Assembly (NCBI RefSeq): GCF_001636565.1
Contig: NZ_LRTK01000006.1
Span: 159,723 to 195,080, forward strand
Length of the DNA: 35,358 bases
DNA from: Frankia sp. EI5c
GTDB taxonomy: Bacteria; Actinomycetota; Actinomycetes; Frankiales; Frankiaceae
Direction: 5' to 3'
Below are positions 16,632-34,832 of this stretch, in pieces (the stretch's first letter is position 1; every line of letters starts with the position of its first letter). The position numbers were made by a program, and so were the translations under genes. The notes beneath the pieces were generated by a model, which saw only the letters and a list, made by a program, of their open reading frames with translations, had not been told where the DNA came from and did no database searches.

Positions 16632-16659
16632 TCAGATCGCCGGGTTCAGATCGCCGGGT
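16632..16659. repeat. 14-bp tandem duplication across stop codon
   Basis: TCAGATCGCCGGGT occurs twice without a gap. The copy at 16646 holds the TGA and last codons of the DUF4232 gene; the copy at 16632 lies just past the stop. Confidence 0.88.
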
Positions 16660-17539
16660 AGAGCGCCGTGACCCGCAGCTCGGCCAGCGCCGGCTCCGGG
16701 CAGCCGGCCCCGGCGGAAACTGCCCCGGCGTCCAGCGGCAGCAGGGCGGCGAGGCCGTCCACCGTGAGCGCCTCACCGCCGCCGGGCGGGATGACCCGCA
16801 GGCCCGCGGGCGGCACCGCGGAGCCGTCCGCGCCGCAGGCGGGGAACAGCCCCGCCGCGCTCACGGTGAGCCCCGCCTCGGCCCGCTCACCGGCCGCGAG
16901 CAGCACCGCCGCGCCGGCCGGCCCCTCGGCCGCGGCCGGCTGCCCACGCCTGGTGCCGGCCTCGTCCACCTGGAACACCACCGGCCGACCGCCCACCTCG
17001 CAGGCCTGCCCACCGGTGTTGACCAGTGCCAGCGTGGCGTGTGTCTGGCCCGCACCGTGCTGTGCGTCCACGAGCTCCGCGCGCAGCTCACTCGGTGCGC
17101 AGAGCGGCACCGCGGTCGGCCCTGTCGAGGCCGGCGCCGCGGCGAGGGCCTGAGCCTGGCCCCGGGCACCCGCGCCCGCGCCGGCTTCCGGAGAAGTGGC
17201 CGCCGAGCCTTCACGGAAAGTGACCGTTCGAGGAGCAGCCGGCCGGGGGATGTCTGGTCGGGCGGCGGCAGCGACGGCGGGCGCCGCACCCGCCGCGGTG
17301 TCACCCGCTCCAGCCCGCCCGACACCGGGGACACCGGCCGCGGCGACACCGAGCACGGCGAAAGCCGCGAGAACAGCGAAAGCCGCGAGAACAGCGAACA
17401 CAGCGAGCCCGCCGAAAACAGCGGGCATGGCGGACCGGGCAACCGCGGACCTCGCCGCGGGCGCCCGGCCCGGCCATTCCGGTGGCCTGTTCCGACGGCT
17501 GGTCACAGGGAATTCAAGGGCACGCGGAGAATGACGCAT
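16646..17539 (-). CDS. Membrane-anchored DUF4232 protein
   Basis: A 297-residue protein. A basic N-terminus is followed by a hydrophobic helix (about residues 36-65) made of repeated AVFAVLAA units, then a long Ala/Pro/Gly linker. The C-terminal 150 residues match DUF4232: CAPSELRAELVDA, ATLALVNTGGQACEVGG, with three or four cysteines probably forming disulfides outside the membrane. DUF4232 proteins are common in actinobacteria, mostly secreted or lipoproteins, with unknown function. The ATG at 17539 is behind GGGAGG and starts just before the basic segment; the frame runs open to 17905 but that extension looks non-coding. The helix is encoded by an 18-bp duplication. Confidence 0.75.
   Translation of the reverse strand: MRHSPRALEFPVTSRRNRPPEWPGRAPAARSAVARSAMPAVFGGLAVFAVLAAFAVLAAFAVLGVAAAGVPGVGRAGAGDTAAGAAPAVAAAARPDIPRPAAPRTVTFREGSAATSPEAGAGAGARGQAQALAAAPASTGPTAVPLCAPSELRAELVDAQHGAGQTHATLALVNTGGQACEVGGRPVVFQVDEAGTRRGQPAAAEGPAGAAVLLAAGERAEAGLTVSAAGLFPACGADGSAVPPAGLRVIPPGGGEALTVDGLAALLPLDAGAVSAGAGCPEPALAELRVTALYPAI
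17358..17393. repeat. 18-bp tandem duplication in DUF4232 membrane segment
   Basis: GCGAAAGCCGCGAGAACA occurs at 17358 and 17376 and a partial third copy follows. It encodes repeated FAVLAA units of the transmembrane helix, in frame. Confidence 0.85.
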
Positions 17540-17920
17540 GACGCCCTCCCGGCTCCCCCGATCTGGGCTCCGTTCCTGCGTTCTCGGGCGCTGATCGCGC
17601 CCGGTCTCGATCACCTTCCCAGCCCGGGTGGACGCCACACCTGGAATTCCGGGCCAGATCCGCGGGCCGACCGGGCTGGCCACAACGGGTGGAGCCCGGC
17701 CGGCGGGGCCGACGGCGAGGGCGCGGGCGCGGCGCGGTACAGCGCGCCATGCCACGCCGTCGCCCTCTGGACCGACGCACCTCCCACAGGCCATCGTGAA
17801 ACGGTCCGTCTCCGACGTGCGTTGAACCAGCGTGACCGGGGGTAGACAGCATGACCGGGGGTAGCCAGACACCTGGGCGACAGTCGGACCCGACAGTCGT
17901 CCCACCCGACGGAAGGGATC
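17540..17920. other. Intergenic region upstream of CNNM pair
   Basis: About 380 bp without a credible gene, between the divergent DUF4232 and CNNM units. Two direct copies of TGACCGGGGGTAG at 17833 and 17852 (19-bp period) stand 70-90 bp before the leader ORF. A TTGAAC at 17822 might be a -35, but no good -10 was found. Nothing else seen. Confidence 0.5.
17833..17864. promoter_or_regulatory. Direct repeat, possible operator upstream of CNNM genes
   Basis: TGACCGGGGGTAG-(A/C)-CAG is present twice with a 19-bp period, close to two helical turns, so a protein could bind both on one face. Position upstream of the leader ORF suggests control of the CNNM operon. It resembles no site I can name. 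Confidence 0.4.
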
Positions 17921-17998
17921 ATGATCAGTTCCGACGATGCCGGATGTAGTTCCGGCCGGCCCACGCGTGAAGAAGCGCCCGCGGGGGCCGATCAGTGA
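17921..17998 (+). CDS. 25-residue leader ORF coupled to CNNM gene
   Basis: An ATG behind a good ribosome site (GGAAGGGA, 2-8 bp upstream) opens a 25-codon frame, MISSDDAGCSSGRPTREEAP plus AGADQ, whose TGA overlaps the GTG of the CNNM gene (GTGA). The CNNM GTG has no strong Shine-Dalgarno of its own beyond GGGGG, so its translation probably depends on ribosomes finishing this ORF. The peptide is acidic with prolines, which recalls leader peptides that sense low Mg2+ in other bacteria; that link is speculation. Too short for similarity to be judged. Confidence 0.5.
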   Translation: MISSDDAGCSSGRPTREEAPAGADQ

Positions 17999-19728
17999 CC
18001 GAGGCGCTTCTGTTGCTCCTGAGTCTCGCCCTCGTCGCCGCCTGCGGCGTCTTCGTCGCCGCGGAGTTCGCGTTCGTGACGGTGGACCGGCCCACCGTGG
18101 AACGCGCGGCCGAGGGCGGGGACCGCTCCGCCGCGGGTGTCCTGACCGGCCTGCGAAGCCTGTCCACCCAGCTCTCCGGAGCGCAGCTCGGCATCACCAT
18201 CACCAATCTCGCCATCGGTTTCCTGGCCGAACCCGCGATCGCCACCCTCGTCGAAGGCCCGGTCACCGACCTCGGCGCGTCGCGGGGTGTGGCCCGGGGG
18301 GTGTCCGTCGCACTCGCGCTGGTGATCGCGACCGCCTTCACGATGCTCTACGGGGAGCTCGTTCCCAAGAACCTCGCGATCGCGAAGCCGCTGGGGACGG
18401 CGCGGGCCGTGCAGCGCCCGCAGCGGGCGTTCACCCGGATCGCCCGTCCTGTGATCAGCTCGCTGAACCGGACGGCGAACGCGCTGCTGCGGCGGGTCAA
18501 CATCGAGCCCCGGGAGGAACTGGCGTCCGCCCGTTCCCCGCAGGAGCTGTTCTCGCTGCTCGGGCGGTCAGCCGAGCACGGCACACTGCCGCGGGAGACC
18601 GCGACGCTCATGCAGCGCTCGCTCACGTTCGGCGACCGGGTCGCCGAGGACGTCATGACGCCCCGGATGCGCATGCAGTCCATCGAGGCCGACGCACCCG
18701 TCGCCGAGGTGATCAGCGCCGTCCGGCGGACGGGCCACGCCCGCTTCCCGGTCACCGGGGAGGGCAGCGACGACGTGGTCGGCCTCGTGCACGTCAAGCA
18801 CGCGGTGAGCGTGCCCGAGGAGCTCCGCGACACCACCCCGGTGCGGGATGTGATGGTTCCCGCGGCGACCGTGCCGTCGTCGATGCCGCTCGATCCGCTG
18901 TTGGAGACCCTGCGCTCGGGCGGCCTGCAGATGGCCATCGTCGTCGACGAGTTCGGCGGGACGGACGGCCTGGTGACGGCGGAGGACCTCATCGAGGAGA
19001 TCGTCGGTGACGTCATCGACGAACACGACCGGGTCAGCCCGCGGGCACTGCGCCGCCGGGACGGCAGCTGGCTGCTCTCCGGCCTGCTGCGTCCCGAGGA
19101 GGCCAGTGAGGTCACCGGCCTGCCGGTGCCGGCCGACGACTCCTACCAGACGCTGGGCGGCCTGATCGCGCGGGCCCTGGGCCGCATCCCACAGACCGGT
19201 GACACGGCTCTGGTGGACGGCATCCACTACGAGGTGGAGCGGATGGACGGCCGGCGGGTCGACCGCATCCGCCTCGATTCGCGGGACGGCTCCGGGCACG
19301 GGCCGGACGAGGCCACCGGAGACGGGCCGGACGAGGCCACCGGAGAGGCGGGTGGCACCGCCGCCGACGGGACGGCCACTGCCACCGGCACCGGCTCCGA
19401 CGCCGCGGGCGGAAACGGGACCACGGGCGGAAACGGGACCACGGGCGGAGGCGGAGCCACGGGCGGAGGCGGAGCCACGGGCGGAGGCGGAGCCACGGGC
19501 GGAGGCGGAGCCACGGGCGGAGGCGGAGCCGCGGGCGGAAACGGGACCACGGGCGGAAACGGGACCACGGGCGGAGGCGGAGCCACGGGCGGAGGCGGAG
19601 CCACGGGCGGAGGCGGAGCCACGGGCGGAGGCGGAGCCGCGGGCGGAGGCGGAGCCGCGGGCGGAGGCGGAGCCGCGGGCGGAGGCGGAGCCGCGATGTC
19701 GGCCGGAGCCCGCGGGGCCGGCCGGTGA
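17995..19728 (+). CDS. CNNM/HlyC-CorC family protein with CBS pair and Gly-repeat tail
   Basis: A 577-residue membrane protein. Residues 1-195 are the CNNM (DUF21) transmembrane domain (VAAEFAFVTV, SGAQLGITITNLAIGFLAEP, ELVPKNLAIAKPL). About 215-345 is a CBS pair (RVAEDVMTPRMRMQSIEADA; VVDEFGGTDGLVTAEDLIEE), and 350-430 a CorC_HlyC domain. Family members move Mg2+ or related ions, with CBS domains binding adenine nucleotides. Residues 472-567 are sixteen Gly-rich hexapeptides (GGNGTT, GGGGAT, GGGGAA), which look like recent expansion. Start GTG overlaps the leader ORF, and the stop overlaps the next gene, so three frames are coupled. The pair resembles M. tuberculosis Rv1842c-Rv1841c. Confidence 0.9.
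   Translation: MTEALLLLLSLALVAACGVFVAAEFAFVTVDRPTVERAAEGGDRSAAGVLTGLRSLSTQLSGAQLGITITNLAIGFLAEPAIATLVEGPVTDLGASRGVARGVSVALALVIATAFTMLYGELVPKNLAIAKPLGTARAVQRPQRAFTRIARPVISSLNRTANALLRRVNIEPREELASARSPQELFSLLGRSAEHGTLPRETATLMQRSLTFGDRVAEDVMTPRMRMQSIEADAPVAEVISAVRRTGHARFPVTGEGSDDVVGLVHVKHAVSVPEELRDTTPVRDVMVPAATVPSSMPLDPLLETLRSGGLQMAIVVDEFGGTDGLVTAEDLIEEIVGDVIDEHDRVSPRALRRRDGSWLLSGLLRPEEASEVTGLPVPADDSYQTLGGLIARALGRIPQTGDTALVDGIHYEVERMDGRRVDRIRLDSRDGSGHGPDEATGDGPDEATGEAGGTAADGTATATGTGSDAAGGNGTTGGNGTTGGGGATGGGGATGGGGATGGGGATGGGGAAGGNGTTGGNGTTGGGGATGGGGATGGGGATGGGGAAGGGGAAGGGGAAGGGGAAMSAGARGAGR
19408..19695 (+). repeat. 18-bp coding minisatellite, 16 units
   Basis: Sixteen in-frame units of GGCGGAGGCGGAGCCACG and variants. 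In order the encoded hexapeptides are NTT, NTT, four GAT, GAA, then NTT, NTT, three GAT, GAA, then three GAA (named by residues 3, 5 and 6 after Gly pairs). The repeated NTT-NTT-GAT-GAA block shows a higher-order duplication of about 7 units. It is translated, uninterrupted and ends 30 bp before the stop of the gene. Confidence 0.95.
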
Positions 19729-20771
19729 ACGACGTCGTCGCCCTCGCCGTGACCGTGCTGCTGCTGGCCTGCAACGCGTACTTCGTCGGCGCCGAGTTCG
19801 CGCTCATCTCCGCGCGCCGGGACACCATCGAGCCGCGAGCGGCCGCCGGTTCCCGCGCCGCGAAGGTCACGCTGCGCGCCATGGAGAACGTGTCGCTGAT
19901 GCTGGCCGGAGCACAGCTCGGGATCACCGTCTGCACCCTCGGCCTCGGCGCGTTGAGCGAACCCGCCATCGCGCACCTGCTGGTGGGCCCGTTCGAGGCG
20001 ATCGGCCTGCCGTCCTCGATGCGGCACCCGGTCGCGTTCGCCATCGCGCTCACGCTGGTGACATACCTGCATGTCGTGGTCGGCGAGATGGTGCCCAAGA
20101 ACCTGGCCCTCGCCCTGCCGGACCGGGCGGTCCTGCTGCTCACGCCGCCGCTGGTCGGGGTCGTGCGGGTGGCCAGGCCGGTGATCTCCGTCCTCAACCG
20201 CATCGCGAACCTCTCCCTGCGGGCCGTGCGGGTCCAGCCGAAGGACGAGGTCACCAACGTCTACACCCGGGACGAGGTGGCCGGGCTCATCGAGGAGTCG
20301 CACCGCGAGGGCCTGCTGGCGGAGGACGAGCACGACCTGCTCACCGGCGCGCTGTCGTTCGACGAGCGCACCGCCCGCAGCGTGCTGCTGCACCCGGAGG
20401 GGCTGGTCACGGTGCCGCCCACGATCACACCTCGGGAGGTGGAACAGCTCGCCGCCGACACCGGGTACACCCGTTTCCCCGTCCGCGGCGAGGACGACGA
20501 CCTCGTCGGCTACCTGCACCTCAAGGACGTCCTGGAGAACCGTGAGGACCGCCGGTCCGCGCCCGTGGCCGCCAAGTGGATCCGGCCGCTGGTCCGGGTG
20601 GGGGCGGAGGACAGCCTGCGGACGGCCCTGGCGACCATGCAGCGCTCCGGTTCGCACCTGGCCCGGCTCTCCGACCCCGCCGGCCGCATCCTCGGTCTGG
20701 TGGCCCTGGAGGACATCCTGGAGGAGCTGGTCGGCGAGATCCGGGACGAGGCGACCCGGCACGACGCCTGA
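19725..20771 (+). CDS. Second CNNM-family protein with CBS pair
   Basis: A 348-residue CNNM protein, shorter than its neighbour. Residues 1-190 are the DUF21 membrane domain (VGAEFALISARRDT, LAGAQLGITVCTLGLGALSE, EMVPKNLALALPDR). About 210-340 is the CBS pair (VLLHPEGLVTVPPTITPREV; LGLVALEDILEELVGEIRDE). The CorC_HlyC domain is missing, as in the short member of tandem CNNM pairs. GTG overlaps the TGA of the upstream gene by 4 bp, so the two are translationally coupled and probably form a heterodimer in the membrane (inference from the family's dimeric DUF21 fold). Confidence 0.9.
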   Translation: MNDVVALAVTVLLLACNAYFVGAEFALISARRDTIEPRAAAGSRAAKVTLRAMENVSLMLAGAQLGITVCTLGLGALSEPAIAHLLVGPFEAIGLPSSMRHPVAFAIALTLVTYLHVVVGEMVPKNLALALPDRAVLLLTPPLVGVVRVARPVISVLNRIANLSLRAVRVQPKDEVTNVYTRDEVAGLIEESHREGLLAEDEHDLLTGALSFDERTARSVLLHPEGLVTVPPTITPREVEQLAADTGYTRFPVRGEDDDLVGYLHLKDVLENREDRRSAPVAAKWIRPLVRVGAEDSLRTALATMQRSGSHLARLSDPAGRILGLVALEDILEELVGEIRDEATRHDA

Positions 20772-20807: not shown

Positions 20808-20821
20808 GGCTGACGTCAGCC
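20808..20821. other. Perfect 14-bp palindrome at convergent ends
   Basis: GGCTGACGTCAGCC covers the stop codon of the substrate-binding protein gene, 37 bp after the end of the second CNNM gene. With no loop it is more operator-like than terminator-like; part of a GGGCC-rich run (20793-20809) could instead pair in RNA. Confidence 0.4.
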
Positions 20822-22063
20822 GAGGGTGTCCCCGCACAGCGCCATCGGCATCTGCACCTGGAACGCGTCCGCCGCCTGCGAGACCCGGACCACGCTCACG
20901 CAGGCGCGCGGCGCGTTCTTCGCGGCGAGATCGACGGGGGCGGGCAGCAGCCCGTCCGCGTCGTAGTTCCGGATCTCGCGCAGCGCGGCGATGTAGCCCG
21001 CGCGGGTCGGGCACTGGCCGGCCTCGGTCAGACCACGCAGGAAGAGATCCGCCGTCATCCAGCCGACCAGGCCGGTCGTCTGCTCCGGCCGCTCGATCTG
21101 CGGCGCGTACCGGGCCATCGCGTCGAGATAGCGCCGGTGCGCCGGTGTCGCCGCCTCGAAGGGCACGAAGTCGACGAGGAAGAAGGAGCCGGCGAGCCCG
21201 GGCTTGCGGCGGTCGAGCAGGACGGGGTCGTAGCCGACCGGCTGCATCGCCACCTTCACCGGGACGCCCGCCGCCCGGGTCGCGGCGAGCACGTCCGCGA
21301 ACGCCTGCACGGGCACGACTCCGGTGATCATGTCGGCGCCGGCCGCCCGCACCCGCTCGGCGGCGGCCGCCGGGTCGAAGCCGGCGGGCGTCCAGTCGAC
21401 GGTGTCGACGACCTCGACCGCGCCGGCGCGCAGGCTGCGGGCCAGGCGCTCGCCGATGTGCCCCGAGGTCGGGATCACCTCCGCCCGCAGGATGACCGCC
21501 CGGGTGGCGCCGTGGGAGCGCGCGAACGCTCCGAAGACCGAGGTGCCGAGGTCGCCGCCCAGCATGTTGGAGTAGCCGAAGGTGTTCTCGCCGGCCGCGG
21601 TGAGGTCCTGGCCGATGGCCGGGACGCCCTGCTCCGCGAGATAGCTCGCCGCCTCGGCGCCGATGCCGCTGGTTCCGACGACGGCGAAGGCTCCGGAGCG
21701 GTCCACCAGGTGGCGCGCGGCGCGCAGCGAGCCGTCCGACGTCGACTCGTCGTCCCGCCAGTCGTAGTGGACCTGCCGCCCGTGGACGCCGCCGGCGGCG
21801 TTCACCGCCCCCAGCCGCGCGTCGATGCCGGCCCGGAAGGCACGGGAGAGCTGTGAACCGGAGCCGGTGTCCGGGTAGAGAACGCCGAAGCGGATCTCCT
21901 CGGGGGTGACGCCCGCCTCGGCGGCGCAGGCCGCGCCGGGTGACGGTGCCGACTCATCGGTGGAGCCCCCGAAACATCCGGCCAGCAGGACCGGCAGTAC
22001 TGTCGCCAGCGCCACTCCGGCCGCGGCCATCCGCCGCCGACCACCGGCCGATCCGGTTCTCAT
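20816..22063 (-). CDS. Branched-chain-amino-acid-type substrate-binding lipoprotein
   Basis: A 415-residue Peripla_BP_6 (LivJ-type) protein. Residues 1-30 are a lipoprotein signal ending LLAGC, with Cys30 the lipidation site. The binding fold follows: IRFGVLYPDTGSGSQLSRAF, VNAAGGVHGRQV, AFAVVGTSGIGAEAASYLAE and the second-lobe ITGVVPVQAFADVLAA. Such proteins feed amino acids, amides, urea or aromatic acids to LivHMGF transporters, but no permease or ATPase gene is nearby, so it works with a transporter elsewhere or as a receptor. AGGAG stands 7 bp before the ATG; the frame is open further upstream to 22225 without a signal-like start. Confidence 0.88.
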   Translation of the reverse strand: MRTGSAGGRRRMAAAGVALATVLPVLLAGCFGGSTDESAPSPGAACAAEAGVTPEEIRFGVLYPDTGSGSQLSRAFRAGIDARLGAVNAAGGVHGRQVHYDWRDDESTSDGSLRAARHLVDRSGAFAVVGTSGIGAEAASYLAEQGVPAIGQDLTAAGENTFGYSNMLGGDLGTSVFGAFARSHGATRAVILRAEVIPTSGHIGERLARSLRAGAVEVVDTVDWTPAGFDPAAAAERVRAAGADMITGVVPVQAFADVLAATRAAGVPVKVAMQPVGYDPVLLDRRKPGLAGSFFLVDFVPFEAATPAHRRYLDAMARYAPQIERPEQTTGLVGWMTADLFLRGLTEAGQCPTRAGYIAALREIRNYDADGLLPAPVDLAAKNAPRACVSVVRVSQAADAFQVQMPMALCGDTLG

Positions 22064-22263
22064 CGGTTTCTCCTGACGTCCCAGCGTCACAGCGCCAGCG
22101 GTGACGAACCTCCTGCCGACCGGTCCCCACCCAGCGCCGCCCCGAGCATCTCCAAAACGGCTCTTTCCGCTCATTTCCGGATGATCGGGGCAACCGGCCC
22201 GGCAACGGTACAACATCACGGACACGGAGCCCAGCGACCCGGAACCCGACGGACCCGGCGGAA

Positions 22264-23393: not shown

Positions 23394-26093
23394 GTGACCG
23401 GGTATTCGCAATCACCGGCGTCCGGTAATTCCGCACGGCCGCTGCGTGCGGACGATCCCGTCCAGCTCGGCAACTACCGGGTGATCGGCCGGCTCGGCCA
23501 GGGCGGGATGGGCGCGGTCTTCCTTGGCCAGGCGCCGGACGGCACCGCCGTCGCGATCAAGGTCATCCGCCCGGAGCTGGCATCCCGGCCGGAGTTCCGG
23601 GCTCGCTTCGCCCGCGAGGCCGAGAGCGCCCGCCGGGTCCGCCGGTTCACGACGGCGGCCGTCCTCGACGCGGACCCGGAGGGACCGCAGCCGTACCTGG
23701 TGACGGAGTTCGTCGAGGGCCCGACGCTGTCGCGGCACGTCACGGCGCGCGGGCCGATGCGCCCGGCCGATCTCGAACAGCTTGCGGTCAGCGTGGCGAC
23801 CGCGCTGTCGGCGATCCACGCCGCCGGCATCGTGCACCGCGACCTCACCCCGGCGAACGTGCTGCTCTCCCCGGTCGGCCCGAAGGTGATCGACTTCGGG
23901 CTGGCGCGGGAGTACGACACCGTGAGCGACCTTTCTCGCAACGTGAAGCAGGCGATCGGCACACCCGGCTACATGTCGCCGGAGCAGATTCTCGATCTGC
24001 CGATCACCTCCGCGGTCGACATCTTCGCCTGGGGCGCGATCATGATCTTCGCCGCCACCGGGCAGCCGCCGTTCGGGCCGGGGCGGGTCGAGGCGGTCCT
24101 CTACCGCATCGTGAACGAGTCGCCCCGGCTGAACGACGTGACCGGCGAGCTGCGCGAGCTGGTCGAGCTCGCGATGCGCAAGGACCCGGCGACCCGCCCG
24201 AGCGCCGAGGAACTGCGCCTCGCGCTGACGGCCGGGGTGGCCATCCCGGAGCGGACCGCCCCGGCCGCGGGCGCCGAGGCCGACCGCGGCCGGGGCGGGA
24301 AGGACGACGGCGCGGCCCGGGGCCGACGATGGTCCCGGGCCGGGCGGCGGGCCGGCGCGGGGTCACCTCCGCCCGCCGCGGCCGGCGGCCGGGGCCCGGC
24401 GGACACCGTCATATCGCCGGGCACCCCACCGCCGCCGGTGCCGACGGCAGCCCCCCAGCCCGGCCCACCCGGGCAGAGTTCGCAACCGGGCTCCTCACAG
24501 CCGCCGGTCTCACCCGTTCCGTGGTCGGCCCAGCCCCTTTCGCAGCCGCTCACGCCGCCCCGTTCGCAGGGGCCGCAGTACCCCGCGGCACCGCCGTACT
24601 CCCCGGCTCCGCACCGCTCGCACGCACCTCAGCACTCCCCCGCACCTCAGCACTCCCCCGCACCGCACTCCCCCGCACCGCAGCACTCCCCCGCACCGCA
24701 GCACCTGTCGGCGCCGCAGCCCGCGGCCGCGGACGCTGCGCGGGCCGCCGGGCAGGGCGCGGCCGGGCAGGGCGCGGCTCCCGCGCCCGCGGGCACCGGC
24801 GCGGAGACGAACCGCCGGAAACTCGGTCGGCCGGTCATGGTGGTGGGCGTCGCGGCGTTGCTGGCCGCCGCCGTCGCCATTCCGCTGGCGACGCTGGGCG
24901 GTGACGACGACTCCGCCTCCACCGCGGACCGCGAGGCCATCGCGACCCAGCTCGCCGCCGACGCCGCCGCCAGCCGCGCCAACGACCCGGCCCTGGCCAG
25001 GCGCCTCAGCCTCGCCGCCTACCGGATCGCTCCCGTCGGTCCCGCCGCCGACGCCCTGATCGCGTCGTTCGGCGAGCGCACCGCGGTGCGGCCCCCGGCG
25101 TCCGGCAGCCCGGGCCGGGACGTCGCGTTCAGCCCGTCGGGCTCCGTCCTCGCCCTGGCCGAGGCCGACGGCACCCTACGGCTTTACCAGCTGACCGACG
25201 GCGGCGAGCCGACGCAGCTCAGCGAGCGGCGGACGGAGGACCCGGCCTCGGCCGTCATGTTCGGCCACAACGGCGACCGCCTGGCGCTCAGCGGCACCCA
25301 GGCCCCGGCGCGGCTGTGGGACGTCACCGACCCGGCCGACCCGCGGCCGCTGGCCGAGATGACCGGCCTGAGCAGTCCCGTCCAGGTGGCCCTGTCCGAG
25401 GACGGGTCGCTGCTCGCCGCCGCGACCGAGGACGGCACCTTCGCGCTGTGGCGGCTGACCGACCCGTCCGCGCCCGAGCCGCCCCGCCTGCAACGGTCCC
25501 CCGTGGCCCAGGACATGGCGCTCAACCCGGCCGGCGACCTGCTGGCGATGGCGGGCATCGGCGGTGACATCCAGCTCTGGGACATCACCGATCCGGCGAA
25601 CCCGGTACGGGCCGCCGTGCTCAGCGGCGCGGCGGGCGCGGTCAACACGGTGGCCTTCAGCCAGGACGGGAAGCGTCTGGCCGCCGGCGGGGATGATCGG
25701 ACCGTGCGGGTCTGGGACGTGACCGCGCCGGCCGAGGGCCGGGTCACTGACGAACTGACCGGGCACGCGGCCGCCGTCACCACCGTCGCGTTCGGGCCCG
25801 ACGGGCAGGTCGTGAGCGGTGACCAGGCGGGCGTCGTGGAGTACTGGGGCGGCTCCAACCCGGCGGCGCCGGTACGGATCGGCGACCTGAGGAGCCCCGT
25901 GCTGTCGCTCGCCGTCGATCAGGCCGGCGAGCGGCTCGCGCTCGCCACCGAGGACGGCCAGACCATGGTCTGGTCGGTGGATCCCGACCGGCTCACCGCG
26001 GTCGCCTGCGCGGACCCGACGGCGCGGATCAGCCAGGCCGAGTGGAGCAGGTTCGTACCGGATCTCCCCTACGCCGACCCCTGCGGGATCTGA
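23394..26093 (+). CDS. Receptor-like Ser/Thr protein kinase with external WD40 domain
   Basis: An 899-residue PknB-type kinase. Residues 28-280 are the kinase: glycine loop GQGGMG (35-40), Lys56, Glu75, HRDLTPAN (148-155, Thr152 replacing the usual Lys), DFG (167-169), GTPGYMSPEQ and the final Arg of DPATRP. Catalytic residues are otherwise complete, so it should be active. A Pro/Gln/His-rich linker (about 300-480, with HSPAPQ repeats) leads to one membrane helix (about 482-502, MVVGVAALLAAAVAIPLATL). Residues about 560-890 hold WD40-like repeats (LWDVTDPADP, LWDITDPANP, RVWDVTAPAE), probably a beta-propeller outside the cell. The ligand is unknown. It converges on the Hsp70-PstS fusion. Confidence 0.92.
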   Translation: MTGYSQSPASGNSARPLRADDPVQLGNYRVIGRLGQGGMGAVFLGQAPDGTAVAIKVIRPELASRPEFRARFAREAESARRVRRFTTAAVLDADPEGPQPYLVTEFVEGPTLSRHVTARGPMRPADLEQLAVSVATALSAIHAAGIVHRDLTPANVLLSPVGPKVIDFGLAREYDTVSDLSRNVKQAIGTPGYMSPEQILDLPITSAVDIFAWGAIMIFAATGQPPFGPGRVEAVLYRIVNESPRLNDVTGELRELVELAMRKDPATRPSAEELRLALTAGVAIPERTAPAAGAEADRGRGGKDDGAARGRRWSRAGRRAGAGSPPPAAAGGRGPADTVISPGTPPPPVPTAAPQPGPPGQSSQPGSSQPPVSPVPWSAQPLSQPLTPPRSQGPQYPAAPPYSPAPHRSHAPQHSPAPQHSPAPHSPAPQHSPAPQHLSAPQPAAADAARAAGQGAAGQGAAPAPAGTGAETNRRKLGRPVMVVGVAALLAAAVAIPLATLGGDDDSASTADREAIATQLAADAAASRANDPALARRLSLAAYRIAPVGPAADALIASFGERTAVRPPASGSPGRDVAFSPSGSVLALAEADGTLRLYQLTDGGEPTQLSERRTEDPASAVMFGHNGDRLALSGTQAPARLWDVTDPADPRPLAEMTGLSSPVQVALSEDGSLLAAATEDGTFALWRLTDPSAPEPPRLQRSPVAQDMALNPAGDLLAMAGIGGDIQLWDITDPANPVRAAVLSGAAGAVNTVAFSQDGKRLAAGGDDRTVRVWDVTAPAEGRVTDELTGHAAAVTTVAFGPDGQVVSGDQAGVVEYWGGSNPAAPVRIGDLRSPVLSLAVDQAGERLALATEDGQTMVWSVDPDRLTAVACADPTARISQAEWSRFVPDLPYADPCGI

Positions 26094-26156: not shown

Positions 26157-28793
26157 TCAGGCGTTCACCGGTGGGACGCCCTGCGTCAGCTCGCCGACGC
26201 GGGTGACGTTCTCCTTGATCGTGTTCCCGTCCCGCGGCACGTAGTGCGCGTCGAAGGCGATCTGCCGGCCGTTCTCCAGGTAGTAGCGCATGTAGGCGGC
26301 GGTGGCGGGCTCGCGCAGCGCGTCCTTGCGGGCGTAGACGAACACCGGCTTGCAAAGCGGCAGGTAGAAGCCCGTCCCGGCGGTGACCGCGTTCGGCTCG
26401 ACACACCCCTCGCCGTTGTCGATCTCCAGGCCGCGCAGCCGGGAACCGAACGTCTCGAAGGTCGGGAAGTCCAGGAAGCCCATCGCGAGCCGGTCACCGG
26501 AGACCGCGGTCGCCACCCCGCTGAGATCGGTCTCCTGGTACTGGCGGGACCGGTCGCTGGCGTCGTTCACGGTCGTGTTGAAGACCTGGGCCTGCACGCT
26601 GTCCCGCGCCGGTCCCACGAACGCGATCGGCTCGTTCGGGAAGGAGCTGTCGATCTCGCTCCAACGGTTGATCTTCGACCCGGCGTCCCAGATCTTGCGC
26701 ACCTGGTCGAGGGTCAGGCAGCGGGCCCAGGTGTTCTGTGGGTTCACCACGATGGGCAGGGTGTGGTGCGCCACCTCGAAACCGACGATCTGGTCCGCGC
26801 AGCCGGCGTTGTTCGAGAAGCTGGGATCGAACTCGAACGAGGCGCCGGCCACGTCGATCTCGCCGGCGCACAGTTTCGCGAAACCGTCCTCCGTGGTCGA
26901 CGAGGCCACGTTCACCGTCACGTTCGGCTGGACCTTGCGGAAGCCGGCGTAGGCGGTCTCGCTGATCGGCGCGACCTCGGCGGAACCGGCGACCAGCACC
27001 ATGTTCGGCCCGGCGGTCTCCGGGGCCGGGGCCACGCTCGCCGGCGGCGACGTCGGCCCCCCGGCGATCGGCAGGACGCTGGTCGGCGAGTCATCGTCAC
27101 CGCCGCGGGTCACGACGAGCCCGAGGGCCGCGGCCCCGACGATGAAGACGATCGCGGCGACGGCGGCCGCGATGGTCGTCCGCGGCCAGCCACCGGACGA
27201 GCCGCCGTGGGAGCCCCGCCGGCCGGGCCCACCGCCGCCGGCCCGGTGAGCCGCGGGCGGCGCCGCTCCGCCACCACCGGCACCGCCACCACCGCCGGCC
27301 GGGTAGCCTCCGCCCGGCCCGCCGGCGTTGGGCTCGACGACCTCCATGCCGCCGAGAACCGTGGCGGCGCTCGCGTCATAGCCGGTGGTGGACGTCCCGG
27401 CGAAGTCGGGTGCGGTCTGCGGGGCCGCCGGGACGCCCCCGCCGACGCCCGGGTCCCGCGGCGACGCGCCCGGGTTCCCGATCACGGTGGCGTCCGGGTC
27501 CGCCTGGGACGGCCCCGCCCCCGGCCCCGAGGCGGCACCGACCGGCGGGAACGACGCGGCCGGCGGGAACGACGCGGCCGGCGGCACGGAGGTCAGCGGC
27601 GGAACCGAGCCCCCCGGCGGGTAGGAGCCCGGCTGCGAGAGCCCGCCCCACGGCGGCACGGATGCGGTGGGGGCGACGTCCGGCGGCCGGATGATGGACG
27701 TCACGTCCTCACCCGGGGAGCGTTCGGCGAGCCCCGCGGCGATCAGCGCGGCACCGACGGCGATGTCCTCGTCCGAGCCGTACTGCCAGCGGCCGACCGC
27801 GGGCAGTGCCGCGCGCATCTGTGCCGCGACCAGCGGCATCCGGGCGGTGCCGCCGAAGAGCAGCACGGTGGAGAGGTCCGCGGGGTCCGCCTGGCCGCTG
27901 CGCAGCGCCTGCCGGAACGCCCGCACCGTGTCGTCGACCGCCGGCGTGACCAGCGCGTCGAGGTCGGCGCGGCGCAGGGTGACCGCGGCCGGCTCCCGAC
28001 CGGGGAGCGCGAGCGGGACCTCGATCTCCTCTTCCTCGGCCAGGTACTCCTTGGCCTGCGCGCACTCGTCACGCAGCCGGGCGAGGGCGACCGCCACCGC
28101 CGTGTCGGTGGTGTCGAGCTGGTCACGGCTGGTACCGGCGTGTGCCAGCACCCTGTCCACCAGCAGCTCGTCGATGTGCTCGCCGCCCGTGCGGCTGATG
28201 CCGGCCGGCGAGCCGAGCCGCTCGAGCCCGAACGGGCTGAAGGACAGCACCGCCGCGTCGAAGTGCCCCGCGCCGAAGTCGTAGAAGCCGACCAGGTCGA
28301 CGGTGCGCGCGGCGCGGCGGCTGATCAGCAGCCGTCCGATCGCGTCGGCGGATGCGCACGTCGTGACGGGAGCGGAGACGTCCGAAAGCTGGCTGACGGC
28401 GCTGGCGAAGGCCTCGCGGCGGTGCTCGGGCCAGAACGCCGGATGAGCGACGACGATCTGTTCCGGCGCCTCCCCCCGGGACGCGGTGACCTGCTCGACG
28501 AGATGGCCGATCAGCCGGGCGAGCAGACCCTCCGGGCTGTAGGCGGCGCCGCCGACGAGGATGTGGCCGGGCTCGCCGATCCGGTGCAGGAACCCGCGCG
28601 CCGCGCGGTCGGGAGCGGCGGTGGCCCGCCGCAGTGCCGACCGACCGGCGAGCACACCCCCCGCCGGGGGCATGAAGAGAACGGACGGCACCGCCCGCGC
28701 GCCACCCAGGGTGATCACCGCGGGCCAGCCTCCGTCGGAGACCGCGAGAACCGTGGTCGCCGAACCGACGTCGATGCCAAGTTGGTAGCCCAC
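26157..28793 (-). CDS. Hsp70-like ATPase domain fused through a membrane helix to a PstS-like domain
   Basis: An 878-residue fusion. Residues 1-355 are an Hsp70 actin-fold domain: GIDVGSATT (6-14, phosphate 1), DFGAGHFD (172-179, phosphate 2), GGEHIDELLVDRVL, LLFGGTARMP (about 311-320, adenosine site). Two residues needed for hydrolysis in DnaK differ: Lys70 is Leu69 and Thr199 is His177. The Hsp70 peptide-binding domain is absent. A Pro/Gly-rich linker (356-535) is followed by a single helix (about 537-560) and a PstS-type binding domain (590-875: AGSAEVAPISETAY, LCAGEIDVAGASFE, the C-terminal YLPLCKPVFVYARKD) outside the cell, with cysteines probably paired. GTG 28793, GGAGG 5 bp upstream; the frame continues to 28952 without support. 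Ligand and role unknown. Confidence 0.9.
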   Translation of the reverse strand: MGYQLGIDVGSATTVLAVSDGGWPAVITLGGARAVPSVLFMPPAGGVLAGRSALRRATAAPDRAARGFLHRIGEPGHILVGGAAYSPEGLLARLIGHLVEQVTASRGEAPEQIVVAHPAFWPEHRREAFASAVSQLSDVSAPVTTCASADAIGRLLISRRAARTVDLVGFYDFGAGHFDAAVLSFSPFGLERLGSPAGISRTGGEHIDELLVDRVLAHAGTSRDQLDTTDTAVAVALARLRDECAQAKEYLAEEEEIEVPLALPGREPAAVTLRRADLDALVTPAVDDTVRAFRQALRSGQADPADLSTVLLFGGTARMPLVAAQMRAALPAVGRWQYGSDEDIAVGAALIAAGLAERSPGEDVTSIIRPPDVAPTASVPPWGGLSQPGSYPPGGSVPPLTSVPPAASFPPAASFPPVGAASGPGAGPSQADPDATVIGNPGASPRDPGVGGGVPAAPQTAPDFAGTSTTGYDASAATVLGGMEVVEPNAGGPGGGYPAGGGGGAGGGGAAPPAAHRAGGGGPGRRGSHGGSSGGWPRTTIAAAVAAIVFIVGAAALGLVVTRGGDDDSPTSVLPIAGGPTSPPASVAPAPETAGPNMVLVAGSAEVAPISETAYAGFRKVQPNVTVNVASSTTEDGFAKLCAGEIDVAGASFEFDPSFSNNAGCADQIVGFEVAHHTLPIVVNPQNTWARCLTLDQVRKIWDAGSKINRWSEIDSSFPNEPIAFVGPARDSVQAQVFNTTVNDASDRSRQYQETDLSGVATAVSGDRLAMGFLDFPTFETFGSRLRGLEIDNGEGCVEPNAVTAGTGFYLPLCKPVFVYARKDALREPATAAYMRYYLENGRQIAFDAHYVPRDGNTIKENVTRVGELTQGVPPVNA
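27543..27578. repeat. 18-bp tandem duplication in the fusion linker
   Basis: CGGCGGGAACGACGCGGC occurs twice, in frame, giving repeated AASFPP units in the linker before the membrane helix. Confidence 0.75.
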
Positions 28794-29118
28794 TGGATCC
28801 TCCGGATGTCTTCGCTCGTTCTCCGCCGTCACCGCCGCGAACGGGCGCAGCGTGGCCCCCCGGCTCCCGCTCAGTGCGCCTACGCCGCGACACCGAGACC
28901 ATCGGCTACCGACGGGGTACTTCACACGACAACGAAAGACCTGGCGGCCCACATCGTAGGCCGCCAGACCAGGACCGCCCTATCCGGTAGCGGACATCGA
29001 TATCAGAAGGCGGACACCCACAGAAGGCCGAGCGCATCCGGAACGCCCATTCCGCCGGAACACGTCCGGCGCGGGCCCAGGAGAAACACCGGGTTCATCC
29101 GGTGAAACGCGGCTGACC
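28794..29118. other. Upstream region of the Hsp70-PstS gene
   Basis: About 325 bp without a gene. It holds a 9-bp inverted repeat (28941-28967) and presumably the promoter of the fusion gene, reading leftwards. I looked for tandem PhoP-type repeats (GTTCACC) and found only a lone GTTCATCCGGTGAAAC-like dyad near 29092-29107. Confidence 0.5.
28941..28967. promoter_or_regulatory. 9-bp inverted repeat upstream of Hsp70-PstS gene
   Basis: CTGGCGGCC and GGCCGCCAG are perfect arms around CACATCGTA, centred about 160 bp upstream of the GTG at 28793. It may be an operator or a hairpin in a long leader RNA. Nothing ties it to a known regulator. Confidence 0.45.
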
Positions 29119-29296: not shown

Positions 29297-29648
29297 CGGC
29301 TACATCGGGGACGGCTCGACCCGCTGGTCGGCCGTGCACCGGGCCGACGCCGCCCACCTGGTCGGGCTCGCGCTGGAGAAGGCGCCGGCGGGCACGCGGC
29401 TGCATGTGGTGGCCGAGAGCGGGATCGCCTCCCGCGACATCGCCGCCGCGATCGGCGACCACCTGGGCGTGCCCACGGTGTCGGTCGCGCCCTCGGACGC
29501 CCCGGACCACTTCGGCTGGATCGCGGGCTTCTTCGGCCTGGACCTCGCGGCGTCCAGCGCCCGCACCCGGGAGCTGCTGGGCTGGACGCCGACCGGCCCG
29601 ACGCTGCTGGCGGACATCGCCGCCGGCGCCTACGCGCTGCCCGGTTGA
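29295..29648 (+). pseudogene. Atypical-SDR oxidoreductase remnant (C-terminal part only)
   Basis: About 117 residues of the C-terminal half of an NAD(P)-dependent epimerase-like SDR: GYIGDGSTRWSAVHRADAAH, LVGLALEKAPAGTRLHVVAE, then ARTRELLGWTPTGPTLLADI and a normal stop. The Rossmann half with GxxGxxG and the catalytic YxxxK is absent; the frame begins at the junction with the TetR remnant. A GTG at 29334 could start a 104-residue product, but it would have neither cofactor site nor catalytic residues. Confidence 0.75.
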
Positions 29649-30681: not shown

Positions 30682-32912
<2,231 letters not shown>

Positions 32913-32913
<1 letters not shown>

Positions 32914-34832
32914 CAGGCCACTCCCGCCTCTGCCAGGGTCGTGCGCAGCACCTCGACGGCGTTGCAGCCGGCGAAGACGTACCCGGTCACGCCCGCGGCG
33001 GCGTCGGTCGCCGCCCGGGTGCCGGCCTTGCCCGCGAGCCACACCGTGCCGGCGCCCGCCGCCCGCAGTGCCTCGGCCACCGGGGCCGCCCACTCGGCGT
33101 ACACCTTGTCCGCCGAGCACAGGCAGGCGACCTTCGCGCCGGACGCGGTGAAGGCCGCGGCGATCGCGGCCGGGTCCGTGCCCGGCCCCGAGTCGGGGGT
33201 GGCCAGACCGCCGGCCTGGAACAGGTTCGCGGCGAAGGTCGACCGGGCGGTGAAGGCCGCCACGCTGCCGATCGTCGCCAGGAAGACCGCCGGGCGAGCC
33301 CCCGTCGACGCGGTGTGGGTGTCCGACCGGGCGCGCAGTTCCTCGTAGTCCTGGTCGTAGGTGATGACCGGCAGACCGGCGCCGGTCCCGGTGCCCGCGG
33401 CGCTTCCGGTGCCCGCGGCCGGCTCCGCCGGGGCGGCCGGGCGCTCGGGCAGCTTCTCGGTCAGGTTCGGGAACTCGCTCACCCCGGTCAGCGGGTCACG
33501 CCGGTGCGCGAGCGCGTCCGCCCGGGCGGCCCAGGTGGCGTCGAGCCGGGCCCGCAGCGATCCGTCGGCCAGCGTCGCGGCGAGACCGCCGGCCCGCTCG
33601 ATCTCGGTGAACACCGCCCATGCCGCCGCGGCGAGGGAGTCGGTCAGGGACTCCACGTACCAGGAGCCACCCGCCGGGTCGACCACCCGGATGAGGCTCG
33701 ACTCCTCCTGCAGCAGGGTCTGCGTGTTGCGCGCGATCCGGCGGGAGAAGTCATCCGGCAGTCCCAGCCGGACATCGAAGGGCAGCACCGTCACCACGTC
33801 CGCGCCGCCGACGCCGGCCGCGAAGCAGGCGACGGTCGTGCGCAGCATGTTCACCCAGGGATCCCGGCGGGTCATCATCGCGGACGAGGTGACCGCGTGC
33901 TGCCGCTGGGCCCACAGCTGCGGCGCCGCGCCGCAGACCTCCGCGACCCGCGCCCACAGCCGGCGGGCGGCCCGCAGCTTGGCGATCGTGAGGAACTGGT
34001 CGGCGGTCGCCGCGTAGCGGAACTCCAGCTGGCCGAGCGCGTCGGCCACGCTCATCCCGGCGCCGGTCAGCTCGCGCAGGTAGGCGACCCCGGTGGCGAT
34101 CGACGCGCCGAGCTCCTGCGCGTCGCTGCCGCCGGCGTCGTGGTAGGCCCGGGCGTCCACGACCAGCGTGCGCAGCCGCGGGTACTCGGCGGCCACCCGG
34201 GGAGCGAGGGCGCGGACCCCGGCGAAGTCGGGGGCCGCGCCCGTCCGGGCCGCGAGGCCGAGCGGGTCCGCCCCGAGCACCCCGCTGACCTGGGAGGCCG
34301 GCACGCCGCGCTCGTCCACGAGAGCCAGGAAGGCGGCCGCGGCCTCGCCCGTGAGCGGGCCGGCGTCCAGGGCGACGGGCGCCAATTCCAGGTAGACCTC
34401 GCGCAGCACCTCGGCCAGCCCGTCCAGCGGGAGCCCGGCCGGCCCCAGCCGCAGCCACAGCGAGGTCACACCGTTCTCCAGGTCGGCGAGCGCCGCCTGG
34501 GCACCGACCTTGGGGTCGGGATGGCTGTGCAGGGCGCGGACGTCCCAGCCGTCGGTGTTGGCGCCCTGCGGGCGCCCACCGCGCACGAACGGCGCGAGTC
34601 CCGGCAGGCCCGTCGGCGCCAGCCCGGCGCCGTCGGCCGCGTCGTACAGCGGCCTGATGTGGATCCCCTCGTAGGTCGAGGACGCGATCAGGTCCTCGAC
34701 CTCGCCGGGCCCGGCATCCTCACCCGCGACCCCGGACTTGCGCAGGACGCCCAGGACGAGGCGCCGCCACTCGTCCCTCGTCGCGCCCGGAAAATCGGCG
34801 GCCAACTCCAGCTCCACCGGTGGAACGGTCAT
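32913..34832 (-). CDS. mutA: Methylmalonyl-CoA mutase small subunit
   Basis: A 639-residue homologue of the catalytic subunit that lacks the base-off B12 His (the region reads [20 protein letters not shown]), as is normal for the non-catalytic MutA. It forms the heterodimer with MutB. Recognisable segments are [40 protein letters not shown] and [17 protein letters not shown]. An Ala/Gly/Pro-rich insertion (about residues 445-470) separates the barrel and C-terminal domains. The ATG at 34832 has only a weak upstream ribosome site. It is the first gene of the operon; no regulator or epimerase gene lies next to it in the window. Confidence 0.95.

Follow-up and report, generated by a model that had tools for sequence, protein, structure and literature searches.

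A conserved Parafrankia fusion of a degenerate Hsp70 nucleotide-binding domain with a predicted external PstS-like domain

The fusion gene and its surroundings

The window analysed here is a stretch of 35,358 nucleotides from a contig of Frankia sp. EI5c. On its minus strand, at positions 26157-28793, lies a gene in which the sequences for an Hsp70 nucleotide-binding domain (NBD), a linker, a transmembrane helix and a PstS-like domain follow one another. The preliminary description of the locus had reported one uninterrupted frame, and this was confirmed, together with its coordinates and strand: the gene consists of 878 codons in one frame (GC3 of 0.92). It starts with GTG, four nucleotides downstream of the Shine-Dalgarno sequence GGAGGA (28798-28803, minus strand). 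The use of an upstream GTG at 28952, which would yield a protein of 931 amino acids, was rejected, as the orthologues described below begin at the same MGYQLG sequence. The opposite strand has a frame of 953 amino acids at 26244-29105, which was dismissed as a shadow of the coding frame. A Pfam search with the 878-residue protein returned both HSP70 (PF00012, E = 1.3e-34, residues 81-358) and PBP_like_2 (PF12849, E = 7.3e-20, residues 591-839). In 40 simulations at 74 % GC, the longest chance frame had a median length of 651 codons and a maximum of 908. Long frames are thus cheap at this GC content, and it is homology rather than frame length that carries the claim of a fusion.

Homologues with the same domain order were sought in 84,980 species genomes using exact peptide patterns, a method by which only close relatives are detected, so that the number of hits is a lower bound. 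At least two further loci carry the full-length fusion, namely those of Parafrankia sp. EUN1f (L002; 74 % identity) and P. colletiae (L003; 72 %), where the frame runs for 876 and 901 codons, respectively, without interruption. Parafrankia is a genus of bacteria from soil and root nodules. The genes around the fusion are syntenic in both. The presence of full-length orthologues in two further genomes rules out that two separate proteins were joined through a sequencing error, and speaks against the other refuting case of the preliminary description, in which no homologue with the fusion would exist. Codon comparison of the orthologues gave a dN/dS of 0.25-0.28 in the NBD, of 0.23-0.25 in the PstS-like domain and of 0.53-0.72 in the linker. 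Purifying selection is equal on the two domains, at about 0.25 each, and the low ratios relative to that of the linker indicate that both halves are kept functional together. A chance frame, a misassembly or a pseudogene might have been suspected in view of the high GC content and of the altered active sites in both halves, but the frame is full-length and identical in plan in three genomes, the pocket substitutions are common to the orthologues, and each half is under selection. The orthologues and the dN/dS ratios refute such an artefact or decaying gene; the fusion of an Hsp70 NBD with a PstS-like domain is real and conserved. It was not found in the viral contigs scanned, the gene was unmatched in PADLOC, and a literature search, to which subscription journals were mostly inaccessible, returned no paper describing this architecture. 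HSP70 genes without a peptide-binding domain (SBD) have been mentioned among actinobacterial conflict systems (PMC7159879).

A neighbour of the fusion gene, at 23394-26093 on the plus strand, specifies a Ser/Thr kinase (Pkinase, 1.2e-40) followed by a low-complexity linker, one transmembrane helix and an external WD40 propeller, with the same predicted N-in/C-out orientation as the fusion protein. The two genes lie tail to tail, an arrangement that is the same in Parafrankia sp. EUN1f and P. colletiae. The kinase is a possible partner of the fusion protein. The adjacency was rejected as proof of a partnership, as gene order is kept across the entire region in these closely related genomes. Nor do the PADLOC matches of the kinase indicate a defence system, since they fall on its kinase domain and would be obtained with any Ser/Thr kinase. 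In the draft contig of Parafrankia sp. EUN1f, the kinase copy is frameshifted in its linker.

Several other genes in the window were recognised. A lipoprotein-like Peripla_BP_6 binding protein is encoded near the kinase (20816-22225, minus strand); no transporter genes were recognised adjacent to it, and it is syntenic in L002 and L003. The same synteny holds for two adjacent, overlapping methylmalonyl-CoA-mutase-like genes (30682-34832, minus strand), of which one carries a B12-binding domain and the other does not, as in a large and a small subunit. A tandem pair of overlapping genes for CNNM/CBS (CorC-type) membrane proteins is located at 17995-20771 (plus strand). The protein encoded at 16646-17905 (minus strand) has a C-terminal DUF4232 (residues 269-413) and an N-terminal region of 270 residues without a Pfam match. 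A high-GC3 frame of 104 amino acids at 29334-29648 (plus strand), for which no Pfam match was obtained, resembles what we take to be the C-terminal end of an SDR/epimerase and is possibly a truncated gene.

Two altered domains on either side of one membrane helix

A single hydrophobic helix of 19 residues (residues 543-561; 27111-27167) with a mean Kyte-Doolittle value of 2.75 agrees with the membrane helix reported earlier. Its hydrophobicity is conserved across the orthologues while its sequence is not. As basic residues are present on its N-terminal side and the sequence DDD on its C-terminal side, an N-in/C-out orientation is predicted. The helix is preceded by a Pro/Gly/Ser-rich linker, placed in the cytoplasm by this orientation (residues 372-538; 27180-27680), which according to the dN/dS ratios and a map of conserved columns is variable except for SVPP-type repeats and some islands. 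One of these islands, DATVIG (residues 434-439; 27477-27494), is part of the sequence DPDATVIG, is invariant in the three orthologues and is a candidate site for Thr phosphorylation or docking. The second, AT(V/M)LGGME (residues 477-484; 27342-27365), is invariant or nearly so amid variable sequence. On the outside, a Pro/Ala/Ser-rich stalk starting with DDDSP (residues 562-595; 27009-27110) would connect the helix to the PstS-like domain. All of these features are on the minus strand. A receptor-like topology, with an external solute-binding-protein fold, one helix and an internal Hsp70 actin-fold domain, is well supported by these sequence features.

The NBD (residues 1-371; 27681-28793, minus strand) has an actin fold, is predicted to be intracellular and is degenerate. 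The solved structure closest to it is that of DnaK (2v7y, 9.6e-26); it is 27 % identical to E. coli DnaK, and the NCBIfam DnaK models match the fusion protein only below their cut-offs. Its residues were compared with those of E. coli DnaK, actinobacterial DnaK, HscA, HscC and sampled SBD-less actinobacterial relatives. DnaK residues K70, E171 and T199 are replaced by L69, S148 and H177, and further substitutions concern T11 (to S), G197 (to A), E267 (to A) and S274 (to A); all occur in each of the three orthologues, which stem from closely related genomes, so that one ancestral change explains all shared substitutions. Against DnaK alone, the E171 column is ambiguous (A, T or S), with Glu in none of the readings; the equivalent is set at S148 because the flanking VTT fixes the alignment against the membrane relatives. 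Retained are D8, D194, D201, K270, the GG-x-x-R loop and R345. The earlier claim of all Hsp70 nucleotide motifs was not confirmed: the positions of the motifs can be recognised, but the residues for hydrolysis and for sensing of the γ-phosphate have been replaced in all three orthologues.

In DnaK, hydrolysis is prevented by the mutation K70A or T199A although ATP can still be bound, and K70A also stops the conformational switch (PMC5561102, PMC9691929). T11 and K70 of DnaK are γ-phosphate sensors, E171 has a part in holding the magnesium shell, and the interdomain linker is in contact with N170 and T173 (PMC12406271). The equivalents of N170 and T173 are replaced in the Parafrankia NBD, and the hydrophobic interdomain linker (VLLL-D) is absent from the Parafrankia proteins. 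The NBD ends only about 15 residues ahead of the variable Pro-rich linker, so that a peptide-binding domain is lacking, as the preliminary description had it. Judged from these replacements, the NBD is probably a pseudoenzyme, would have lost ATPase activity, and is unlikely to cycle ATP. The retention of D8, D194, D201, K270 and GG-x-x-R means that it may still bind nucleotide and even hydrolyse it slowly. With K70, E171 and T199 lost and both the peptide-binding domain and the hydrophobic linker missing, an ATPase or chaperone role is not to be assumed.

These observations bear on the idea that the protein is a membrane-tethered chaperone or co-chaperone hub, in which the NBD would recruit J-proteins or other partners and the external domain would serve as an envelope anchor. 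The SBD-less Hspa13 acts at a membrane, and ATPase-dead mutants of it strengthen its effect (PMC9691929); moreover, R151 of DnaK has been kept in the Parafrankia NBD. Hspa13 itself is an active ATPase, however, the residues meeting the linker and the linker itself are gone in the Parafrankia proteins, and genes for J-proteins or GrpE were not recognised in the window, all of which makes a chaperone hub unlikely.

The extracytoplasmic domain (residues 596-878; 26160-27008, minus strand) belongs, by sequence, to the PstS fold family (PF12849, about 7e-20). Its closest solved structure is the phosphate-binding protein 4jwo (1.4e-40), and it is 33-35 % identical to 4jwo and to two actinobacterial PstS proteins encoded in pstSCAB operons (L005 and L006), which were used as references together with solved PstS proteins. 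The NCBIfam model of the PstS family, TIGR02136, matched it at 9.6e-42, its score of 143.2 bits being below the cut-off of 206.6. Five Cys residues (642, 665, 692, 797 and 814) are invariant in the three orthologues. In the PstS family, loops of the types GSST, SGTGGG, SRPI and SGT surround or contact the phosphate, and versions of them are kept in the other solved PstS proteins. In the fusion proteins they read GSAE, STTEDG, SFEF and SVQ (TVQ in P. colletiae), respectively. As the loops are replaced in every orthologue, phosphate binding is not to be assumed, and phosphate is an unlikely ligand. Of the full PstS-type binding domain described earlier, the fold family therefore stands while the four phosphate-contacting loops are altered. 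AlphaFold models made from alignments of three rows reached a mean pLDDT of 48 for the NBD and 38 for the external domain and were discarded; with such low values, the pocket geometry of both domains is deduced from alignment only.

Taken as a phosphate receptor, the protein of the original proposal would couple the external binding of phosphate to the binding or hydrolysis of ATP by the Hsp70 module inside. The solved relatives nearest to the external domain are indeed mostly named phosphate-binding proteins, and the pst operon of M. tuberculosis contains a kinase with an external propeller (PMC1262709). On the other hand, the replaced loops bring a Glu to the anion site (GSST to GSAE) in all three orthologues, the TIGR02136 score falls short, K70, E171 and T199 are lost, and the window contains no recognised pst genes. 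A phosphate receptor of this kind is thus very unlikely.

A wider class of membrane Hsp70s

Nine sampled proteins annotated as 'Hsp70 family protein' on plasmids of Rhodococcus, Gordonia and Prescottella consist of an NBD, a low-complexity linker, one transmembrane helix and 130-200 external residues. The class members compared were L008, L009, L013-L016, L018 and L019, all from plasmids, and L001 of Nonomuraea, an SBD-less protein that has a CD225-type two-helix membrane domain at its C-terminal end instead. When one of the plasmid Hsp70s served as the query, the matches to relatives ended at about residue 350-370, which indicates that the NBD is conserved in the class and that the remainder is variable. 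The view of Hsp70s as cytosolic chaperones, taken as known in the preliminary description, is therefore too narrow, given these SBD-less membrane-anchored Hsp70 domains on several actinobacterial plasmids. A Rhodococcus rhodochrous plasmid (L017, 3076-4703) carries a gene for GrpE directly 5' of that for an Hsp70 family protein of 402 amino acids without a membrane helix.

The Parafrankia fusion has the plan of this class: an NBD, a linker, one transmembrane helix and an external domain, with no SBD. In a tree of NBDs, the Parafrankia proteins and the SBD-less membrane class are separated from DnaK, HscA and HscC with a support of 98/99. The two also have in common an HPxxW motif (HPAFW in Parafrankia, HPEAW or HPARW in the class), where DnaK has VPxxF (VPAYF). 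The Parafrankia NBD thus probably belongs with the SBD-less membrane class, a placement weakened by its very long branch of 3.95 changes per column.

At several of the Prescottella, Gordonia and Rhodococcus loci, a gene for a dynamin-family protein and/or a GTPase precedes that for the SBD-less Hsp70, an arrangement that is common but not universal. The neighbourhoods of L009, L013, L014, L015 and L019 suggest a membrane-remodelling or envelope-stress cassette. Should the class work with dynamin-like GTPases, the Parafrankia protein, which groups with it by its NBD, could be a divergent branch of such an envelope- or membrane-remodelling factor. Dynamin or GTPase genes were not recognised in the window, though, and the external domains, for which Pfam shows no relationship, and the long branch also speak against this explanation, which seems improbable for the Parafrankia protein.

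Interpretation and comparison with known systems

The protein probably serves as a sensor or scaffold rather than as a chaperone or a receptor for phosphate. At about even odds, it is a member of the SBD-less membrane Hsp70 class in which an NBD that is probably a pseudoenzyme serves in sensing, or as a scaffold for, a ligand other than phosphate. The PstS-derived external module would bind a small molecule or an envelope component, whereupon the protein would change in conformation, position or clustering. By way of contacts with other proteins, with Hsp70 partners or within a kinase network, the NBD could relay the change without a cycle of ATP hydrolysis. The linker islands might conceivably be targets of the neighbouring Ser/Thr kinase, which is only a guess because the genes are convergent and the entire region is syntenic. 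Of the one-protein receptor proposed initially, a protein linking outside and inside is still the best reading, while the phosphate ligand and the ATPase or chaperone specifics fail on the altered loops and on the loss of K70, E171 and T199.

More tentatively, and with the balance against it, actinobacteria may have a family of one-protein membrane receptors in which the Hsp70 actin fold takes the cytoplasmic position usually held by a kinase, with the Parafrankia protein as a catalytically dead version joined to a PstS re-purposed for a new ligand. Within the little-studied SBD-less membrane Hsp70 class, the fusion is probably a divergent variant, and for the fusion the functional labels of chaperone ATPase and phosphate receptor are not upheld. 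Hsp70 domains have almost always been studied as chaperones of the cytosol or of organelles. A fold that is under strong selection after the loss of the SBD and of catalytic residues raises the question of what the role of an Hsp70 is without its cycle. A further question concerns the SBD-less membrane Hsp70s of actinobacteria, a larger class that has apparently not been studied, with many members encoded beside dynamin-like genes.

Among known proteins, the SBD-less plasmid Hsp70s of Rhodococcus, Gordonia and Prescottella resemble the fusion in their NBD, their Pro/Ala-rich linker, their single transmembrane helix and their external C-terminal domain. They differ in that the external part is 130-200 amino acids long and not PstS-like, in that many are encoded beside dynamin or GTPase genes, and in that K70, E171 and T199 are kept, as in all sampled SBD-less actinobacterial relatives. 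DnaK, HscA and HscC have a homologous NBD; compared with them, the fusion is without the SBD and the VLLL-D linker, has K70, E171 and T199 replaced, and has gained a transmembrane helix and an external domain. The eukaryotic Hspa13/STCH is also an NBD without an SBD and acts at a membrane system (PMC9691929), but it has kept its ATPase residues and activity and carries no solute-binding domain. With PstS (4jwo, L005 and L006), the external domain has the core signature and 33-35 % identity in common; whereas PstS is a free lipoprotein encoded with pstCAB, the fusion is a membrane protein with four altered loops, and pstCAB were not recognised adjacent to it. The N-in/C-out single-pass plan is also that of receptor Ser/Thr kinases bearing a solute-binding domain or a propeller on the outside (PMC1262709), and of the neighbour at 23394-26093, with a kinase where the fusion has the Hsp70 actin fold. 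Streptomyces and Nostoc have kinases that carry external solute-binding domains (PMC1262709), so that the receptor plan suggested for the Parafrankia protein has a precedent.
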